Part shown: one piece after another, positions 3,206-11,944 of the stretch | Position numbering within the stretch: position 1 is the stretch's first letter | Layout: each line of letters begins with the position of its first letter | From: Paludibacteraceae bacterium | GTDB taxonomy: Bacteria > Bacteroidota > Bacteroidia > Bacteroidales > Paludibacteraceae | DNA length: 35,337 nucleotides | Direction of reading: 5' to 3' | Assembly: GCA_017457295.1 (NCBI GenBank) | Contig: JAFTHS010000018.1 | Location: forward strand, 1 to 35,337 | The notes under the pieces: model-generated | What the model was told of the DNA's origin: nothing | What the model saw: only the letters and a program-made list of their open reading frames with translations | Database searches by the model: none | Made by a program: the position numbers and the translations under genes

Positions 3206-4033
3206 TTACTTCTGATACTTGCCAATAAATCGCATCACTAGGAAAACTAGCCAATCGGGCGTATGCTTGAGTAACGGCGTAGCCAAATAGTTGAGCACAC
3301 CTGGCATGTCGGCCTTCTTACCACGGAACATCTTTTTTAATGCACGCTTTACCAGTTTATCCGGTGGAATAGATACCGTGAGATTAACCGCCAAACGGCG
3401 CAGATTAGGTGCTAATCCGAAAAGAGCCGTATCTACCGCACCTGGAGTCATTACCGTGATATTCACACCCTTAGGTTTGAGTTCATACCATAGAGACTTG
3501 GAAAAATTGTAGATAAAAGCCTTGGTGGCATTATACGACTGAATACCTGGCATTGCCATCCATGCAGACATAGAAGACATGTTGAGAATATAGCCCTTTT
3601 TGCGTGGTTTGCCGCAGAACTTTTGCGATTGTTCTTCTGTCGTGAGCTGACGATTGATCATATCCTCACCAAACAAACGGCAGAGTTTGGCCACCGTAAT
3701 CATATGCAGGTTGAGGATAAGCTCGATACGCTTCATCGATGTTTCGCAATAGGGATTGAAGAAGAATACACCAGCATTGTTGATGAGGATGTCTACAACA
3801 AGGTGATTGTCCTTGCAGTACTGATGAAGTTGTTCTGCAGCGTCTTGCTGAGACAAGTCAGCATAAAGCGGAATAGTCTTCACACCATACTGAGCAGCCA
3901 ATTCTGCTGCTACCTGCTTCTGCTCCTCCTCTTGATTGCTTACCAATAGCAAATCGGTATGATAATCACGCGCGAGTTGGGTAGCATACTGCAATCCAAT
4001 ACCCGACGATGCACCTGTAACTAATGCTAACAT
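3206..4033 (-). CDS. Short-chain dehydrogenase/reductase, candidate 3-hydroxysteroid dehydrogenase
   Basis: Classical SDR of 275 residues. Cofactor loop TGASSGIG is at 6-13, NNAG at 85-88, the catalytic Asn at 109, Ser 153/154 (in LNMSSM) and the catalytic YNATK pair Y167/K171, so it should be active. The C-terminal ~60 residues are basic and hydrophobic, ending in VFLVMRFIGKYQK, like microsomal-type SDRs. Substrate is not readable from sequence. The inference of a hydroxysteroid or bile-acid 3-dehydrogenase rests on the adjacent flavin-dependent reductase and steroid 5-alpha-reductase homologue, a trio reported for Bacteroidales that make 5-alpha/3-beta bile acids. The 109-nt gap to the upstream gene holds an 11-bp tandem repeat; rmuC follows after 20 nt. 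Confidence 0.85.
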   Translation of the reverse strand: MLALVTGASSGIGLQYATQLARDYHTDLLLVSNQEEEQKQVAAELAAQYGVKTIPLYADLSQQDAAEQLHQYCKDNHLVVDILINNAGVFFFNPYCETSMKRIELILNLHMITVAKLCRLFGEDMINRQLTTEEQSQKFCGKPRKKGYILNMSSMSAWMAMPGIQSYNATKAFIYNFSKSLWYELKPKGVNITVMTPGAVDTALFGLAPNLRRLAVNLTVSIPPDKLVKRALKKMFRGKKADMPGVLNYLATPLLKHTPDWLVFLVMRFIGKYQK

Positions 4034-4075
4034 TATTTCGTTGTTGTCTTAGTAATTCCTTGATTAAACTTTCTG

Positions 4076-4108
4076 TCGTTGCCGTCTCGTTGCCGTGTCG
4101 TTGCCGTG
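4076..4108 (-). repeat. Three tandem 11-bp repeats
   Basis: Three head-to-tail copies of an 11-mer, TCGTTGCCGTS on the plus strand (CACGGCAACGA on the transcribed strand), at 4076-4086, 4087-4097 and 4098-4108. They differ only in the last base. They occupy the 109-nt space between the flavin reductase stop (4143) and the SDR start (4033). The unit length is not a multiple of three and no coding sequence crosses it. Confidence 0.9.
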
Positions 4109-4142
4109 TTTGTCAGGTAAGCGGCAGGAAACGAACAAGTAA

Positions 4143-5384
4143 CTATTTAGAATTAGGATACCACATTTGTTCGTACTTGAGAGCCTCTTTCTTGAGGTAT
4201 GCAGGGATATCCTTATCGCACTCGTGGCACTTCATATCTAGTGTATACATGCGCGCAACGCAATAGTTAGAACGCTTGCACTCTGAATGATACTGCTCTT
4301 CACGCATCTTATTCACGAAATCCGTATCACGCACCAAAGCATGGCCAATCTGCACGAAATCAAAACCCTCAGCCAATGCCGTTTCTGCGTTCTCGCGTCC
4401 CATGATGCCACCTACATAAATTAGCGGCATCTTCAGTGCCTTGCGGAATTGCTTAGCAGTATCAAGGAAAAAGAGTTCTTTGAATGGTACTGTAGGAATC
4501 ATCAAGTGACCTACGAAGCGCAATGCCAAACGCAACCACCAAAAGCTCCATGGGTTCATATAGTGCGCTAAAGTTTTGATAGGCATGGCACCACCCATCA
4601 CTGTGAAAGGCGCCTTGCTGACAAAACCCGCAGTCAGTACTAAAGCATGTACGCCATGCTTCTCTATTTCTTGAGCCACCTTGATACACTCCTCTACTTG
4701 CAGACCCGACTTGAAACCATCGTACATATTGGTCTTCACAACAACTGCCATATCATCACCAGCATGTGCCATCACCTCGTCAAGCACCTCGCGCATGAAA
4801 CGCATACGATTGTCTAGACTACCTCCGTACTCATCACGACGACGATTGGTATAAGGCGACAAGAATTGCGAAATCAGATAGCCATGACCCGCGTGAATTT
4901 CTACACAGTCAAAACCACACTCACGGCAAAAATCTACTGCATGACCAAATGCCTTGACAATCTCCTGAATCTCGTGCTTCTTCAATCCACGATGCAAAGT
5001 AGGCGAATAGAGATTAAAACCCGAACTAGCACCTACAGGCATACAATCGCAGGTATAGAAGTGAGTCATATTACCACAGTGGCCCAATTGAATACTAGCT
5101 TTGGCACCTTCAGCATGAATACCATCAGTAAGACGCTTTAGATCATCCTTAATCTCATCATGAATGTAAAGCTGACCATCGAACGACACACCCGAACGAG
5201 TAACCGAACAATATGCCACAGTAGTCATAGCTGCACCACCACGGGCTACGGCCGTATGATAATTGTAAAGGTCTTCACTAGGTTTGTTGCCATATGCCAT
5301 ATTCTCAAAAGCGGCACTGCGAATTGCGCGATTGCGCAAAGTAATAGGACCGAGTTTATGCTCAGTGAAAAGTAGATTGTTCAT
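4143..5384 (-). CDS. NADH:flavin oxidoreductase (Old Yellow Enzyme family), candidate steroid/bile acid 5-beta-reductase
   Basis: 413-residue TIM-barrel flavoprotein of the OYE family, which reduces C=C bonds conjugated to carbonyls. The hallmark segment runs from CVEIHAGHGYLISQFLSP (160-177) through NRRRDEYGGSLDNR (180-193). Phosphate-binding residues YVGGIMGREN lie at 323-332 and the C-terminal GHALVRDTDFVNK at 347-359. Relatives such as BaiCD/BaiH reduce 3-oxo-delta4 bile acids. The longer relatives carry a four-cysteine Fe-S motif followed by FAD and NADH domains. Here the protein ends after an altered cysteine cluster (C369, C375, C386, C389) and lacks those domains. It is flanked by a 5-alpha-reductase homologue (39 nt upstream) and an SDR, so a 3-ketosteroid substrate is a contextual inference. 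Confidence 0.85.
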   Translation of the reverse strand: MNNLLFTEHKLGPITLRNRAIRSAAFENMAYGNKPSEDLYNYHTAVARGGAAMTTVAYCSVTRSGVSFDGQLYIHDEIKDDLKRLTDGIHAEGAKASIQLGHCGNMTHFYTCDCMPVGASSGFNLYSPTLHRGLKKHEIQEIVKAFGHAVDFCRECGFDCVEIHAGHGYLISQFLSPYTNRRRDEYGGSLDNRMRFMREVLDEVMAHAGDDMAVVVKTNMYDGFKSGLQVEECIKVAQEIEKHGVHALVLTAGFVSKAPFTVMGGAMPIKTLAHYMNPWSFWWLRLALRFVGHLMIPTVPFKELFFLDTAKQFRKALKMPLIYVGGIMGRENAETALAEGFDFVQIGHALVRDTDFVNKMREEQYHSECKRSNYCVARMYTLDMKCHECDKDIPAYLKKEALKYEQMWYPNSK

Positions 5385-5423
5385 CTAATTTTGAATTATA
5401 AATTACGTATTTTAATTTCAATT

Positions 5424-6203
5424 TTAGTAGATAAATGGAATGATGCGTTTGAGTTTCTTCTCATCAAACTCATCTGCAAACTCCTCTTTATAACGATGGT
5501 AGATAGAGTTGGCACGAGGTACAAGATTGCAGCAAGAGAACCAGAAGAAACTAAGTCCTGCCCATGACCATGTAAGAATAGCAAAGCCTAACCACTCAGT
5601 AATCTCACCTAAATAGTTAGCACTAGTAACATACTTATACATACCCTGCTTGGGCAGATAGTGATTGGTATCACCAGGCTTGCGAAGATGACGAATCACA
5701 TTATCAGAATGCATATTGATAAACCACCCCGTAGCAAAAATCAATACACCAATAATGAAGCGCGGATCACAAAACCACTCTACCGAATATGGCGCAAATA
5801 CAGGAGCTAGATGGAAGAGCCAATAGCCCTGAATATAGCCATTCAGCAAATTCCAAATAACCGACAAACCCATGATAGCTAAAGGCATGCGTCCGTTACC
5901 TTTCAGCAAGAAAGGAAAAATAAACGAACGCTGGAAATAGTGGAATTGGAATATAAGGAAGAATACCAAATATGGCAACTCAAACTTCACATCCGACAAA
6001 GCCCAAAGGTACAGCATCACAAAAAAGACAGGCATCTCCATCAGACACCACCCCACTTTATTATTGATAGCAGGGCCCCACTTCTCAGTACGCATTTTGC
6101 CATAACCAGCATCTACAAAATACAATGCAATAAATACAACCAAGCCAATCAAGGCAAGAACAAATAGAAAATTATAAAAATTCTCCAGAGTAGATATTTC
6201 CAT
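5424..6203 (-). CDS. Steroid 5-alpha-reductase family membrane protein (SRD5A-like)
   Basis: Multi-pass membrane protein of the 3-oxo-5-alpha-steroid 4-dehydrogenase family. From the ATG at 6203 it has 259 residues, the same size as human SRD5A1. Catalytic residues correspond: E56 (in LMEMPVF) and Y89 (in FHYFQRSF) match the Glu and Tyr of human type 2 enzyme. NADPH-site motifs are strong: FINMHSDNVIRHLRKPGDT at 161-179, YVTSANYLGEITEWLG at 191-206, and the terminal RIIPFIY. An in-frame TTG further upstream (6236) would add an unlikely hydrophilic N-terminus. The gene lies directly behind a good promoter and heads the module with the OYE and SDR genes. Such enzymes reduce the delta4 double bond of 3-oxo steroids to the 5-alpha product; the natural substrate here is inferred. 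Confidence 0.92.
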   Translation of the reverse strand: MEISTLENFYNFLFVLALIGLVVFIALYFVDAGYGKMRTEKWGPAINNKVGWCLMEMPVFFVMLYLWALSDVKFELPYLVFFLIFQFHYFQRSFIFPFLLKGNGRMPLAIMGLSVIWNLLNGYIQGYWLFHLAPVFAPYSVEWFCDPRFIIGVLIFATGWFINMHSDNVIRHLRKPGDTNHYLPKQGMYKYVTSANYLGEITEWLGFAILTWSWAGLSFFWFSCCNLVPRANSIYHRYKEEFADEFDEKKLKRIIPFIY

Positions 6204-6276
6204 ACGCAATAAAAATTTATCCTGCGCGCATGCCAAGTCCGACGCGAAATCGTACGCACGTGCACAAATTAGGCTG

Positions 6277-6307
6277 CAAAGTTACGAAAAATAAATGATA
6301 CCACAAA
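6277..6307 (-). promoter_or_regulatory. Bacteroidota promoter of the steroid-reductase operon
   Basis: On the minus strand a -33 TTTG (6304-6307) is followed by a 19-nt spacer and a -7 TAACTTTG (6277-6284), matching the Bacteroidota sigma-ABfr consensus. Transcription should begin near 6273, leaving about 70 nt of leader before the ATG at 6203. Confidence 0.85.
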
Positions 6308-9516: not shown

Positions 9517-10634
9517 CTCCTGAAAAAGTGAATTTCATGCTGCAACATGGACGGGGTGTATTGTGCGTTCCGATGCCAGAGACACGATGCGCTGAATTGG
9601 ACTTGGTGCATCAAGTATCCAACAACACCTCTATGCTAGGCACCCCCTTTACGGTGACCGTAGATAAACTGGAAGGATGTACCACAGGCGTGAGTGCCGA
9701 GGATCGTGCAGCTACTATTCGTGCTTTGGCAGACCCCAACTCAAAGCCACAAGACTTTGGTCGTCCAGGACATATCAACCCACTCTACGCTCAAGAGCGC
9801 GGCGTATTAAAACGTGCAGGACACACCGAAGCTGCCGTAGATTTGGCACGCTTGGCAGGATTGCAGCCAGTAGCAGCACTCATTGAGATAATGAACGAAG
9901 ATGGCACTATGGCCCGCATGCCCCAACTGGAGAAAGTGGCAGAAGAATATGGACTGAGCTTGATATCAATCAAAGACCTAATTGCCTATCGTATGCAGCA
10001 GGGAGCGACAGCTACCGAGCAAGAACAGCAAAATGCACACGTGATGGTGGAAAAAGGAGAAACCGTATCACTACCTACGGAATATGGCGACTTTCTACTC
10101 ACTCCATTCCGTCAACTCAACAACGGATTAGAGCATATTGTATTGCAAAAAGGCGAATGGAAGGATGATGAACCCATCTTATGCCGAGTACACTCATCAT
10201 GTATGACTGGCGATATCTTTGGCTCAAAACGCTGCGAATGTGGTGAACAACTTCACCGCTCGATGCAAATGGTAGAAAAAGAAGGAAAAGGGCTCATCGT
10301 ATATATGAATCAAGAGGGACGAGGTATTGGTCTGATGAATAAAATTCGTGCATACAAACTGCAAGAGCAAGGCGAAGATACCGTGGAAGCAAACGTACAT
10401 CTTGGTTTCCGTCCCGATGAGCGCGACTATGGTGTGGGAGCGCAAATATTACAAATGATGGAAGCAAAAAAACTACGATTAATGACAAATAATCCAATAA
10501 AACGCATCGGATTGGAGAGTTATGGCATAGAAATTGTAGAGAACATACCAATAGAAGTTGCTCCTAACCCGTACAACTTGCGCTACATGCAAACAAAAAA
10601 GGAGAAAATGTGTCACAATTTAAATTTAGTATGA
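9402..10634 (+). CDS. ribBA: Bifunctional 3,4-dihydroxy-2-butanone-4-phosphate synthase / GTP cyclohydrolase II
   Basis: Makes both starting materials of riboflavin: 3,4-dihydroxy-2-butanone 4-phosphate from ribulose 5-phosphate (RibB half, about 1-200) and the pyrimidine product from GTP (RibA half, about 207-400). RibB shows the acidic [10 protein letters not shown] loop at 21-30, [10 protein letters not shown] at 49-58 and [16 protein letters not shown] at 138-153. RibA shows zinc cysteines C267, C278 and C280 ([20 protein letters not shown]), NQEGRGIGL at 303-311 and [15 protein letters not shown] at 362-376. The N-terminus [15 protein letters not shown] is the family start, so the gene begins inside the upstream permease frame by 115 nt. 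Its stop overlaps the next gene's ATG (ATGA). Confidence 0.96.
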
Positions 10635-11944
10635 GTATGAAAACGAGAATGTTAATGTTGACCATGTGCCTATCGCTATTCTCTTTTATGGCACATGCTG
10701 ACCAGACTGTAACCGTAACGGCTACAAATGCAGACATTTCAGAAGATTTGGATTTGAAAACCGTAGCCACCCTATTCGGACAAGCAAAAGATTTGGAAGA
10801 ATTTGAGCAGATGCTCAATAACCCCGATTCTGCCTTCTCGAATCTAGATCTCAACGGAGATGGCAACGTGGATTATCTACGCGTAATCGAAACAGCAGAT
10901 AAAGAACGCCACTTGGTGGTAATACAAGCCGTACTGGCAAAAGATATCTACCAAGATGTTGCTTCCATCTACGTGGAGAAAGATCCAGAGACACAATCAG
11001 TAACTGTACAAGTGATTGGCGATGAATACATATATGGAAAAGAGTATATTATCGAGCCAGTATATATTTATCGTCCAATTATTTACGATTGGTTTTGGGG
11101 ACCATCGTGGGTATGCTGGCACTCACCATTCTACTGGGATTATTGGCCAGTATGGTGGCATCCATACCACTGCATAGCCCATCACCTATATTGGGATCGC
11201 TGCTATTGGCATCACCATCATCACCCCATCTGCTCGTATCGCACAGGACATCACTATCACCCACACTACGCTCCAATGCGTGCACACATAAGCCGTTCGG
11301 ACTACGCTCGTCGTCACCCTGAACGTTCATTCTCTACACGCAATGCATCGCATCGCTATGCTAATGCACGTGATATCGACCGCAATCGCCAAATGGCAAC
11401 CCGTATGGCAACTCGCGGAGGAGCAGACCATAGTTCCGCAACCCGAGTATCAACTCGCACCAATGCGTCACGCACCTTTAATAGTACAAATGTGCGCACA
11501 AATGACCGCATCACAGCTATGGGTACACGTACCAATAGTTCACGCGACAATGCCAGTACGACCACCCGTGGTGCATCCGCCTCACGTGCACAAAGCGTCA
11601 CTACCCGCACACAGAGCGCTCCGACACGTAACAGTGCTGTAGGCACACGTGACAATAACGCTACACGCACCACAACGACTGTAAATCGCAATGCATCGGT
11701 AAACACCAACCGCAGCAATTCAACTACTGTGACGCACCCAAGTGCTACACGTTCCAGTAGCAGTCCTGCTGTGCGCTCAAGTAGCAGTTCGAGCGTTCGT
11801 TCCAGCGGAAGTTCTACTATGCGTTCCAGTGGAACCTCTGTTCGATCATCAGGCGGTGGTTCAAGCATGCGTTCATCAGGCGGAGCTGTGCGCTCAAGCG
11901 GTGGTGGATCATCATCACGTGGCGGCGGTTCAACACGTAGATAA
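10631..11944 (+). CDS. Secreted His/aromatic-rich protein with Ser/Arg/Gly-rich tail, function unknown
   Basis: Not recognised as a named family. I choose the ATG at 10631, which overlaps the ribBA stop as ATGA and gives 437 residues with an N-terminal signal peptide ([19 protein letters not shown], then cleavage near AHA). Next comes a compact acidic domain of about 120 residues with an EF-hand-like loop [14 protein letters not shown] very Trp/Tyr/His-rich belt follows ([12 protein letters not shown], then a HHHHH run and many HY pairs). The last ~230 residues are low complexity, Thr/Arg/Asn-rich and finally RSSG/SSS repeats. The end is strongly basic. It could be a periplasmic or surface metal- or polyanion-binding protein; that is inference. 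It is cotranscribed with ribBA and the HAD gene. Confidence 0.8.
11745..11940 (+). repeat. Imperfect coding repeats for Arg-Ser-Ser-Gly units
   Basis: The 3' end of the preceding gene is built of degenerate 12-18 bp units such as CGTTCCAGTGGA and CGTTCATCAGGC. They encode repeated RSSSS, RSSG and RSSGGG blocks. Units are multiples of three, so copy-number change would keep the frame. Confidence 0.75.

Follow-up and report, generated by a model that had tools for sequence, protein, structure and literature searches.

Does an uncultured gut bacterium encode its own pathway for remodeling the A ring of steroids or bile acids? This question is raised by three adjacent genes on a stretch of 35,337 bases from a Paludibacteraceae genome (assembly GCA_017457295.1, contig JAFTHS010000018.1; hereafter referred to as the window). 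They encode a candidate membrane-bound 3-oxo-delta4-steroid 5-alpha-reductase (5AR) of the SRD5A type, a flavoprotein of the old yellow enzyme (OYE) family, and a classical short-chain dehydrogenase/reductase (SDR). With a probability of roughly 60%, we regard this trio as the Paludibacteraceae version of the Bacteroidota operon in which a 5AR is combined with a 5-beta-reductase (5BR) and a 3-beta-hydroxysteroid dehydrogenase (3-beta-HSDH), and whose products would jointly flatten 3-oxo steroids.

All three reading frames are complete, free of internal stop codons and located on the minus strand. In the direction of transcription, the SRD5A-type gene (6203 to 5424) is followed after 39 bp by the OYE gene (5384 to 4143) and, after a further gap of 109 bp, by the SDR gene (4033 to 3206). 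The SRD5A-type protein comprises 259 amino acids when read from its ATG codon (270 from an alternative TTG start) and scores 142.6 bits against the Pfam family Steroid_dh (PF02544; E=1.2e-41), for which the cut-off is 22.6 bits. The single-domain OYE-family protein of 413 amino acids, a candidate 5-beta/delta-4 3-ketosteroid oxidoreductase, matches Oxidored_FMN (PF00724; E=3.6e-57) and is the sole match to this family in the genome, while the SDR of 275 amino acids, the candidate 3-beta-HSDH, matches adh_short (PF00106; E=1.4e-35). The initial annotation of this DNA had described three adjacent same-strand genes for a 259-residue SRD5A-type reductase, an OYE-family flavoprotein and an SDR; this description stands, with Pfam matches far above the cut-off.

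Among proteins of known structure, the SRD5A-type protein aligns over nearly its full length with PbSRD5A (PDB entry 7c83; E=8.4e-56) and human SRD5A2 (7bw1; E=2e-42), vs E=3.9e-8 for an enoyl-CoA reductase, and the polyprenol reductase SRD5A3 is not among its PDB matches. A grouping with non-steroid families, which the initial annotation had named as an outcome that would speak against a steroid function, is hence not what the comparison with the enoyl-CoA reductase returns. The catalytic pair, E56 and Y89, is kept in all 101 aligned rows, that of the window included. The Q-E-Y signature of this enzyme type is changed to M-E-Y, as M55 replaces the human residue Q56 in 101 of 101 rows; Met is also present at this position in Phocaeicola massiliensis and in 29 of 30 further loci, with the match from the remaining locus (L031) missing the site. 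As judged from these predicted proteins, the Bacteroidales relatives examined do not follow the Q-E-Y rule for 5-alpha-reductases, and bacterial SRD5A enzymes with a Met at the Q site may still be active. Eight residues of human SRD5A2 are described as serving NADPH (N160, D164, R171, N193, E197, R227, H231, and Y235; PMC7815742). Seven of them are kept when mapped by hand onto the gapless alignment with PbSRD5A, and H231 is replaced by I234, in a column that holds Ile 94 times, Leu five times and Val twice; the mapping of H231 and Y235 is less sure, as the alignment with human SRD5A2 is gapped in that stretch. The initial proposal that both the Glu/Tyr pair and the NADPH motifs are intact therefore holds for the pair and, by this mapping, for about seven of the eight cofactor residues, but not for the full set.

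The OYE-family protein shares with 5-beta-delta4-KSTD1 from Sphingobium Chol11, BaiCD and BaiH its membership in the OYE family, a presumptive activity toward 3-keto steroids at the A ring, and a set of cysteines close to where the OYE domain ends. KSTD1 is reported as a protein of about 75 kDa with two flavins and the cysteines C375-C378-C381-C393 (PMC8044976). The protein of the window differs in its length and in its motif, C369-x5-C375-x10-C386-x2-C389, which departs from the C-x2-C-x2/3-C-x10-12-C set of iron-sulphur OYE proteins (DCR/TMADH/KSTD1 type) by a serine, S372, at the place of the second Cys. Across 93 OYE rows, C369, C375 and C386 are invariant; the second-Cys column contains Ser in 83 rows (Val 6, Thr 2, Lys 1, Ala 1), and the C389 column contains Cys in 81 (His 7, other 5). 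Five of six distant homologues of similar length (two from Sphingobium and one each from Nocardia, Tsukamurella and Burkholderia) possess the full C-x2-C-x2-C set, and the sixth, from Rhodococcus RHA1, has Asn at the second-Cys site. H164, H167 and Y169, to which functional roles are ascribed, are invariant in 44 rows. H348 sits at the place of R308 of YqjM, presumably a contact to the phosphate of flavin mononucleotide, in a column with 79 His and 14 Arg among the 93 rows. According to a simple moment calculation, the most amphipathic stretch of the protein is an insert at about residues 269-301, which might have a role at the membrane. Assignment to BaiCD itself was rejected in view of a score of 198.8 bits against the BaiCD model (NF041087; 642 positions, vs the 413 residues of this protein), far below its cut-off of 825 bits. 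Of the suggestion that this is an OYE of the bile-acid delta4-reductase type, the PF00724 membership and identities of 57-58% to proteins of gut genera remain; membership in BaiCD does not. The SDR is the complete classical SDR that had been proposed, with the TGxxxGIG, NNAG and S-Y-K motifs all present and S154/Y167/K171 invariant in an alignment of 22 rows. A second SDR, 50-56% identical to that of the window, is found downstream of the trio in three relatives (L046, 9324-10115; L053, 8934-9716; L080, 9665-10423).

Is this arrangement a property of one genome or of a lineage? We kept 80 of 149 confirmed loci from relatives, 78 titled Bacteroidales or Paludibacteraceae and two Candidatus Colicola; a herbivore is given as the host in 40 of the titles, and RUG assemblies account for 19 of the loci. 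The nearest 14 relatives show identities of 85-92%. In 66 of the 80 loci, the three genes share a strand and the order SRD5A-OYE-SDR, and no more than 400 bp separate the SDR from the OYE gene; the SDR lies further off in four, seven have SRD5A and OYE only, and three have SRD5A only, one of which (L052) stops 73 bp past SRD5A. The gene order of the trio is conserved well beyond chance. In L049 (6774-9703), GTPase-like (with a His-rich stretch) and groEL-like genes, as judged by eye, follow SRD5A on the opposite strand, and OYE and SDR are lacking. Among 149 genomes of the order, any SRD5A match (E 0.001) was found in 33 and any OYE match (E 1e-30) in 24. When strong matches were picked by hand from the match lists, giving 20 genomes for each protein, 19 genomes had both, one had SRD5A alone, one had OYE alone, and 128 had neither (Fisher p=8e-22, kinship not corrected). 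The two single-gene genomes are G001, with SRD5A alone, and G100, whose OYE is accompanied by a SRD5A match of only 41%. SRD5A and OYE reside on separate contigs in G003, G120 and G148; in G148, whose OYE gene is itself broken in two, an incomplete assembly may account for the split. G001 and G120 each hold two SRD5A copies, and three copies with flanks (L124, L125, L131) are without an adjacent OYE. In 20 regions from 19 other genomes of the order, an OYE gene stands beside SRD5A in 15, with a recognizable SDR in 10 as well. Within the family, a strong SRD5A (E<1e-50) occurs in 44 of 120 sampled genomes (48 at E 0.001), and in seven of eight genomes of the window's own genus.

The trio resembles a known system. 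A review reports that the 5AR gene of Parabacteroides merdae clusters with genes for an NADH:flavin oxidoreductase and a predicted 3-beta-HSDH, that its disruption blocks the formation of allolithocholic acid (alloLCA) derivatives, and that strains of P. merdae, O. laneus and B. dorei convert 3-oxo-delta4-lithocholic acid (3-oxo-delta4-LCA) to isoallolithocholic acid (isoalloLCA) (PMC10382948). The trio comprises the same three protein families, clustered in the same way, and its relatives occur in Phocaeicola and Parabacteroides, which bears out the initially proposed likeness to the Bacteroidales 5AR/5BR/3-beta-HSDH set. The comparison runs through pieces of two genomes, the assayed proteins of P. 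merdae, O. laneus and B. dorei being known by description: a Phocaeicola massiliensis record contains SRD5A (56% identity) and OYE (58%), followed by an SDR of only remote similarity (22%), and a Parabacteroides distasonis record contains OYE (57%) adjoined by an SDR (40%), with no SRD5A within that record. Both records are labelled plasmids; the former (L133) carries, as judged by eye, genes for aconitase, isocitrate dehydrogenase and citrate synthase and is probably a piece of the chromosome, and the latter (L134), with ribosomal protein L25 and peptidyl-tRNA hydrolase, looks like one as well. Since the trio matches the published Bacteroidota cluster of 5AR, flavin oxidoreductase and 3-beta-HSDH, we see in it a further instance of a system already described from gut bacteria, with some variant features, and not a new system. 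It differs from that cluster in its EamA-type neighbor, in an SDR unlike that of Phocaeicola massiliensis, and in having foregut carriers among its relatives. Searches of open-licence papers yielded no title on a 5AR operon from Paludibacteraceae or the rumen, which is not proof of absence from print.

The relatives fall into two groups by the OYE that they carry. Among the 77 of the 80 loci with an OYE, 15 have the window type (>80% identity), and 12 of these bear a hindgut title while three state no site. The other type is found in 62 loci, of which 17 carry foregut titles (rumen, reticulum, omasum or abomasum stated), 19 have RUG names, which we take to denote rumen assemblies, four are from the hindgut, two are Candidatus Colicola, and 20 leave the site unstated. 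Nine rows of the window type and 16 of the remainder were selected to represent the two groups; between them, the OYE proteins are 63% identical, vs 75% for SRD5A and 79% for the SDR; within each group, OYE is the best conserved of the three proteins. This divergence of OYE between hindgut and mostly foregut lineages hints at a possible shift in substrate. The link between OYE type and gut site is a lead and not a test, because it is confined to a single branch. A replacement of the OYE gene by a foreign copy was considered and not upheld, as fast divergence on one branch explains the data equally well: rows of both types are joined in the OYE tree, with 98 in SH-aLRT, an approximate likelihood-ratio branch test, and approximately unbiased (AU) tests on the SRD5A data did not reject clades matching the OYE type (p 0.244 and 0.452), all in rapidly built trees on selections of 40 and 41 rows that gave long-branch warnings.

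What, then, would the three enzymes do together? In the scheme that we prefer, OYE would dehydrogenate a bent steroid of the 5-beta-3-oxo type, for example 3-oxo-deoxycholic acid (3-oxo-DCA) or 3-oxo-LCA, at C4-C5 to yield the 3-oxo-delta4 compound; the membrane-bound SRD5A would reduce this compound from the alpha face, with NADPH as the hydride donor, giving a flat 5-alpha-3-oxo product; and the SDR would reduce the 3-ketone to the isoallo (3-beta, 5-alpha) form. The reducing equivalents released by OYE could balance those spent by SRD5A, at a net cost of one NAD(P)H per steroid. We infer in this scheme the substrates, the direction of the OYE reaction, the stereochemistry of the SDR and the cofactor balance. 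The initial annotation had instead envisaged that one 3-oxo-delta4 steroid is reduced twice in parallel, by SRD5A to the 5-alpha and by OYE to the 5-beta product, with the SDR resetting the 3-hydroxyl. The invariance of H164, H167 and Y169 would suit a reductive OYE, BaiCD is noted to run in the reverse, reducing direction as well (PMC8044976), and gut clostridia possess NADH-dependent 5-beta-reductases of the OYE family that act on progesterone (PMC12238238). These ci2350-type enzymes of Clostridium, likened here by description, are of the same family and act on 3-oxo-delta4 steroids; the term "bacteroid" is absent from the main text of that report. Parallel reduction is thus chemically feasible, but we judge it to be unlikely: opposite products from a single substrate would make little sense in a conserved operon, and in the published indirect pathway of Bacteroidota the flavoenzyme runs from 5-beta to delta-4, after which 5AR and 3-beta-HSDH lead to the isoallo compound (PMC9645264). 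Because that scheme has the flavoenzyme oxidizing 5-beta to delta-4, one net ring inversion is favored as the likelier and more coherent reading of the trio. Oxidation by an OYE-family enzyme also has a precedent in purified 5-beta-delta4-KSTD1, which oxidizes 5-beta-3-keto steroids (PMC8044976). The initial steroid and bile-acid reading accordingly keeps its support from protein families and gene neighborhood, while its claim to both 5-alpha and 5-beta products is less well supported.

Several observations weigh against the preferred reading of the trio as a ring-inverting operon for bile acids and related 3-oxo steroids. Q56 is reported to be essential in human SRD5A2, with Q56A/L inactive (PMC7815742), and M55 stands at this site here; the identity of the SDR to that of Parabacteroides distasonis is no higher than 40%, and the SDR of Phocaeicola massiliensis is a distant one (22%); G217, from the same genus, is without a strong SRD5A, and the SRD5A of G248 has an in-frame TGA. 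Neither a bile salt hydrolase (CBAH) nor an SBF-type transporter was found in the window's genome, which is 94.8% complete, and SRD5A occurs with OYE in the 17 foregut-titled and 19 RUG loci, where bile acids are expected to be scarcer. The last two points, the missing hydrolase and the foregut loci, also speak for a tentative alternative that overlaps with our preferred explanation and differs from it in substrate alone: the same chemistry might be directed mainly, at least in rumen lineages, to ketones of plant sterols or dietary steroids such as stigmast-4-en-3-one. The stronger divergence of OYE between hindgut-type and other lineages would be compatible with it. In herbivore faeces, 5-beta-stigmastanol is reported as the largest compound (geese excepted), followed by 5-alpha-stigmastanol or beta-sitosterol (horses excepted); in sheep and cow faeces, the plant stanol 5-alpha-stigmastanol, which is flat, is one of the major sterols (PMC5217961). 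On the side of bile acids, 44 of 70 targets were detected across samples from yak stomach chambers (PMC11509861), isoalloLCA is listed among the secondary bile acids with raised levels in the dairy cow's large intestine (PMC9750977), and the window's own OYE type is from the hindgut in all 12 loci that state a site. In the 120 genomes of the family, moreover, 5AR is commoner in those with CBAH (11 of 15 at >=168 bits vs 33 of 105 without; 15 of 23 vs 29 of 97 when every CBAH match is counted; p=0.003 in both cases, kinship not corrected). Much more improbable is a non-steroid enone metabolism, in which a polyprenol, enoyl-CoA or other lipid reductase would be accompanied by an unrelated flavoenzyme and SDR. 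PF02544 also covers enoyl-CoA and polyprenol reductases, the SRD5A-type protein has a weak match to art-1, and its signature Q is replaced; with SRD5A-type steroid enzymes, however, the E values are 34 to 48 orders of magnitude lower, the E/Y pair is invariant, and the trio is kin to a cluster whose disruption has a phenotype in bile-acid conversion (PMC10382948). A more speculative and rather improbable elaboration of the ring-inversion reading would have the trio of herbivore Paludibacteraceae split by gut compartment, with an OYE close to the bile-acid type in a hindgut lineage and, in mostly ruminal lineages, a rapidly diverged OYE retuned to plant sterol ketones; both single-domain forms, with their remodeled Cys site and amphipathic insert, might sit at the membrane beside SRD5A and exchange steroid and electrons with it. 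The uncultured Paludibacteraceae are candidate makers of isoalloLCA or 5-alpha-stigmastanol in the herbivore gut, with genes ready to be expressed, and both the changed SRD5A signature and the changed Cys motif of OYE are directly testable.

As to expression, the initial annotation had placed all three genes behind a single promoter. A match to TTTG-N19-TANNTTTG, which we take to be the Bacteroidales promoter consensus, is indeed present upstream of SRD5A on the minus strand (6277 to 6307) in the form TTTG-N19-TAACTTTG, and it is the sole exact match at N19 spacing in the window. Taken alone, this match is weak, because chance would yield 0.23 matches and at least one occurred in 22 of 100 shuffled sequences. 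Further upstream lies a gene for an EamA-family permease (PF00892; 6328 to 7260, minus strand), which is possibly a transporter and likely to have its own transcript. It adjoins the trio (same strand, <=400 bp) in 64 of the 80 loci, and no EamA match was found beside SRD5A in the 20 regions from 19 other genomes of the order. Downstream, rmuC starts only 20 bp past the SDR. We rejected rmuC, the nitroreductase gene and pdxA as parts of the module: the flanks of the 80 loci, scanned for up to 6 kb per side, contained one match to pdxA and none to rmuC or the nitroreductase. The end of the module was set at the SDR because the latter two genes remained unmatched. The genome comprises 2.19 Mb in 145 contigs, and a comparison with phage records gave no match. 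Within the gap between OYE and SDR, positions 4074-4109 hold 3.3 copies of an 11-bp repeat (TGTCGTTGCCG). Elsewhere in the window (10610-11944), a protein of 444 amino acids has a long tail rich in Ser, Thr, Arg and Gly and, judged by eye, is possibly secreted.

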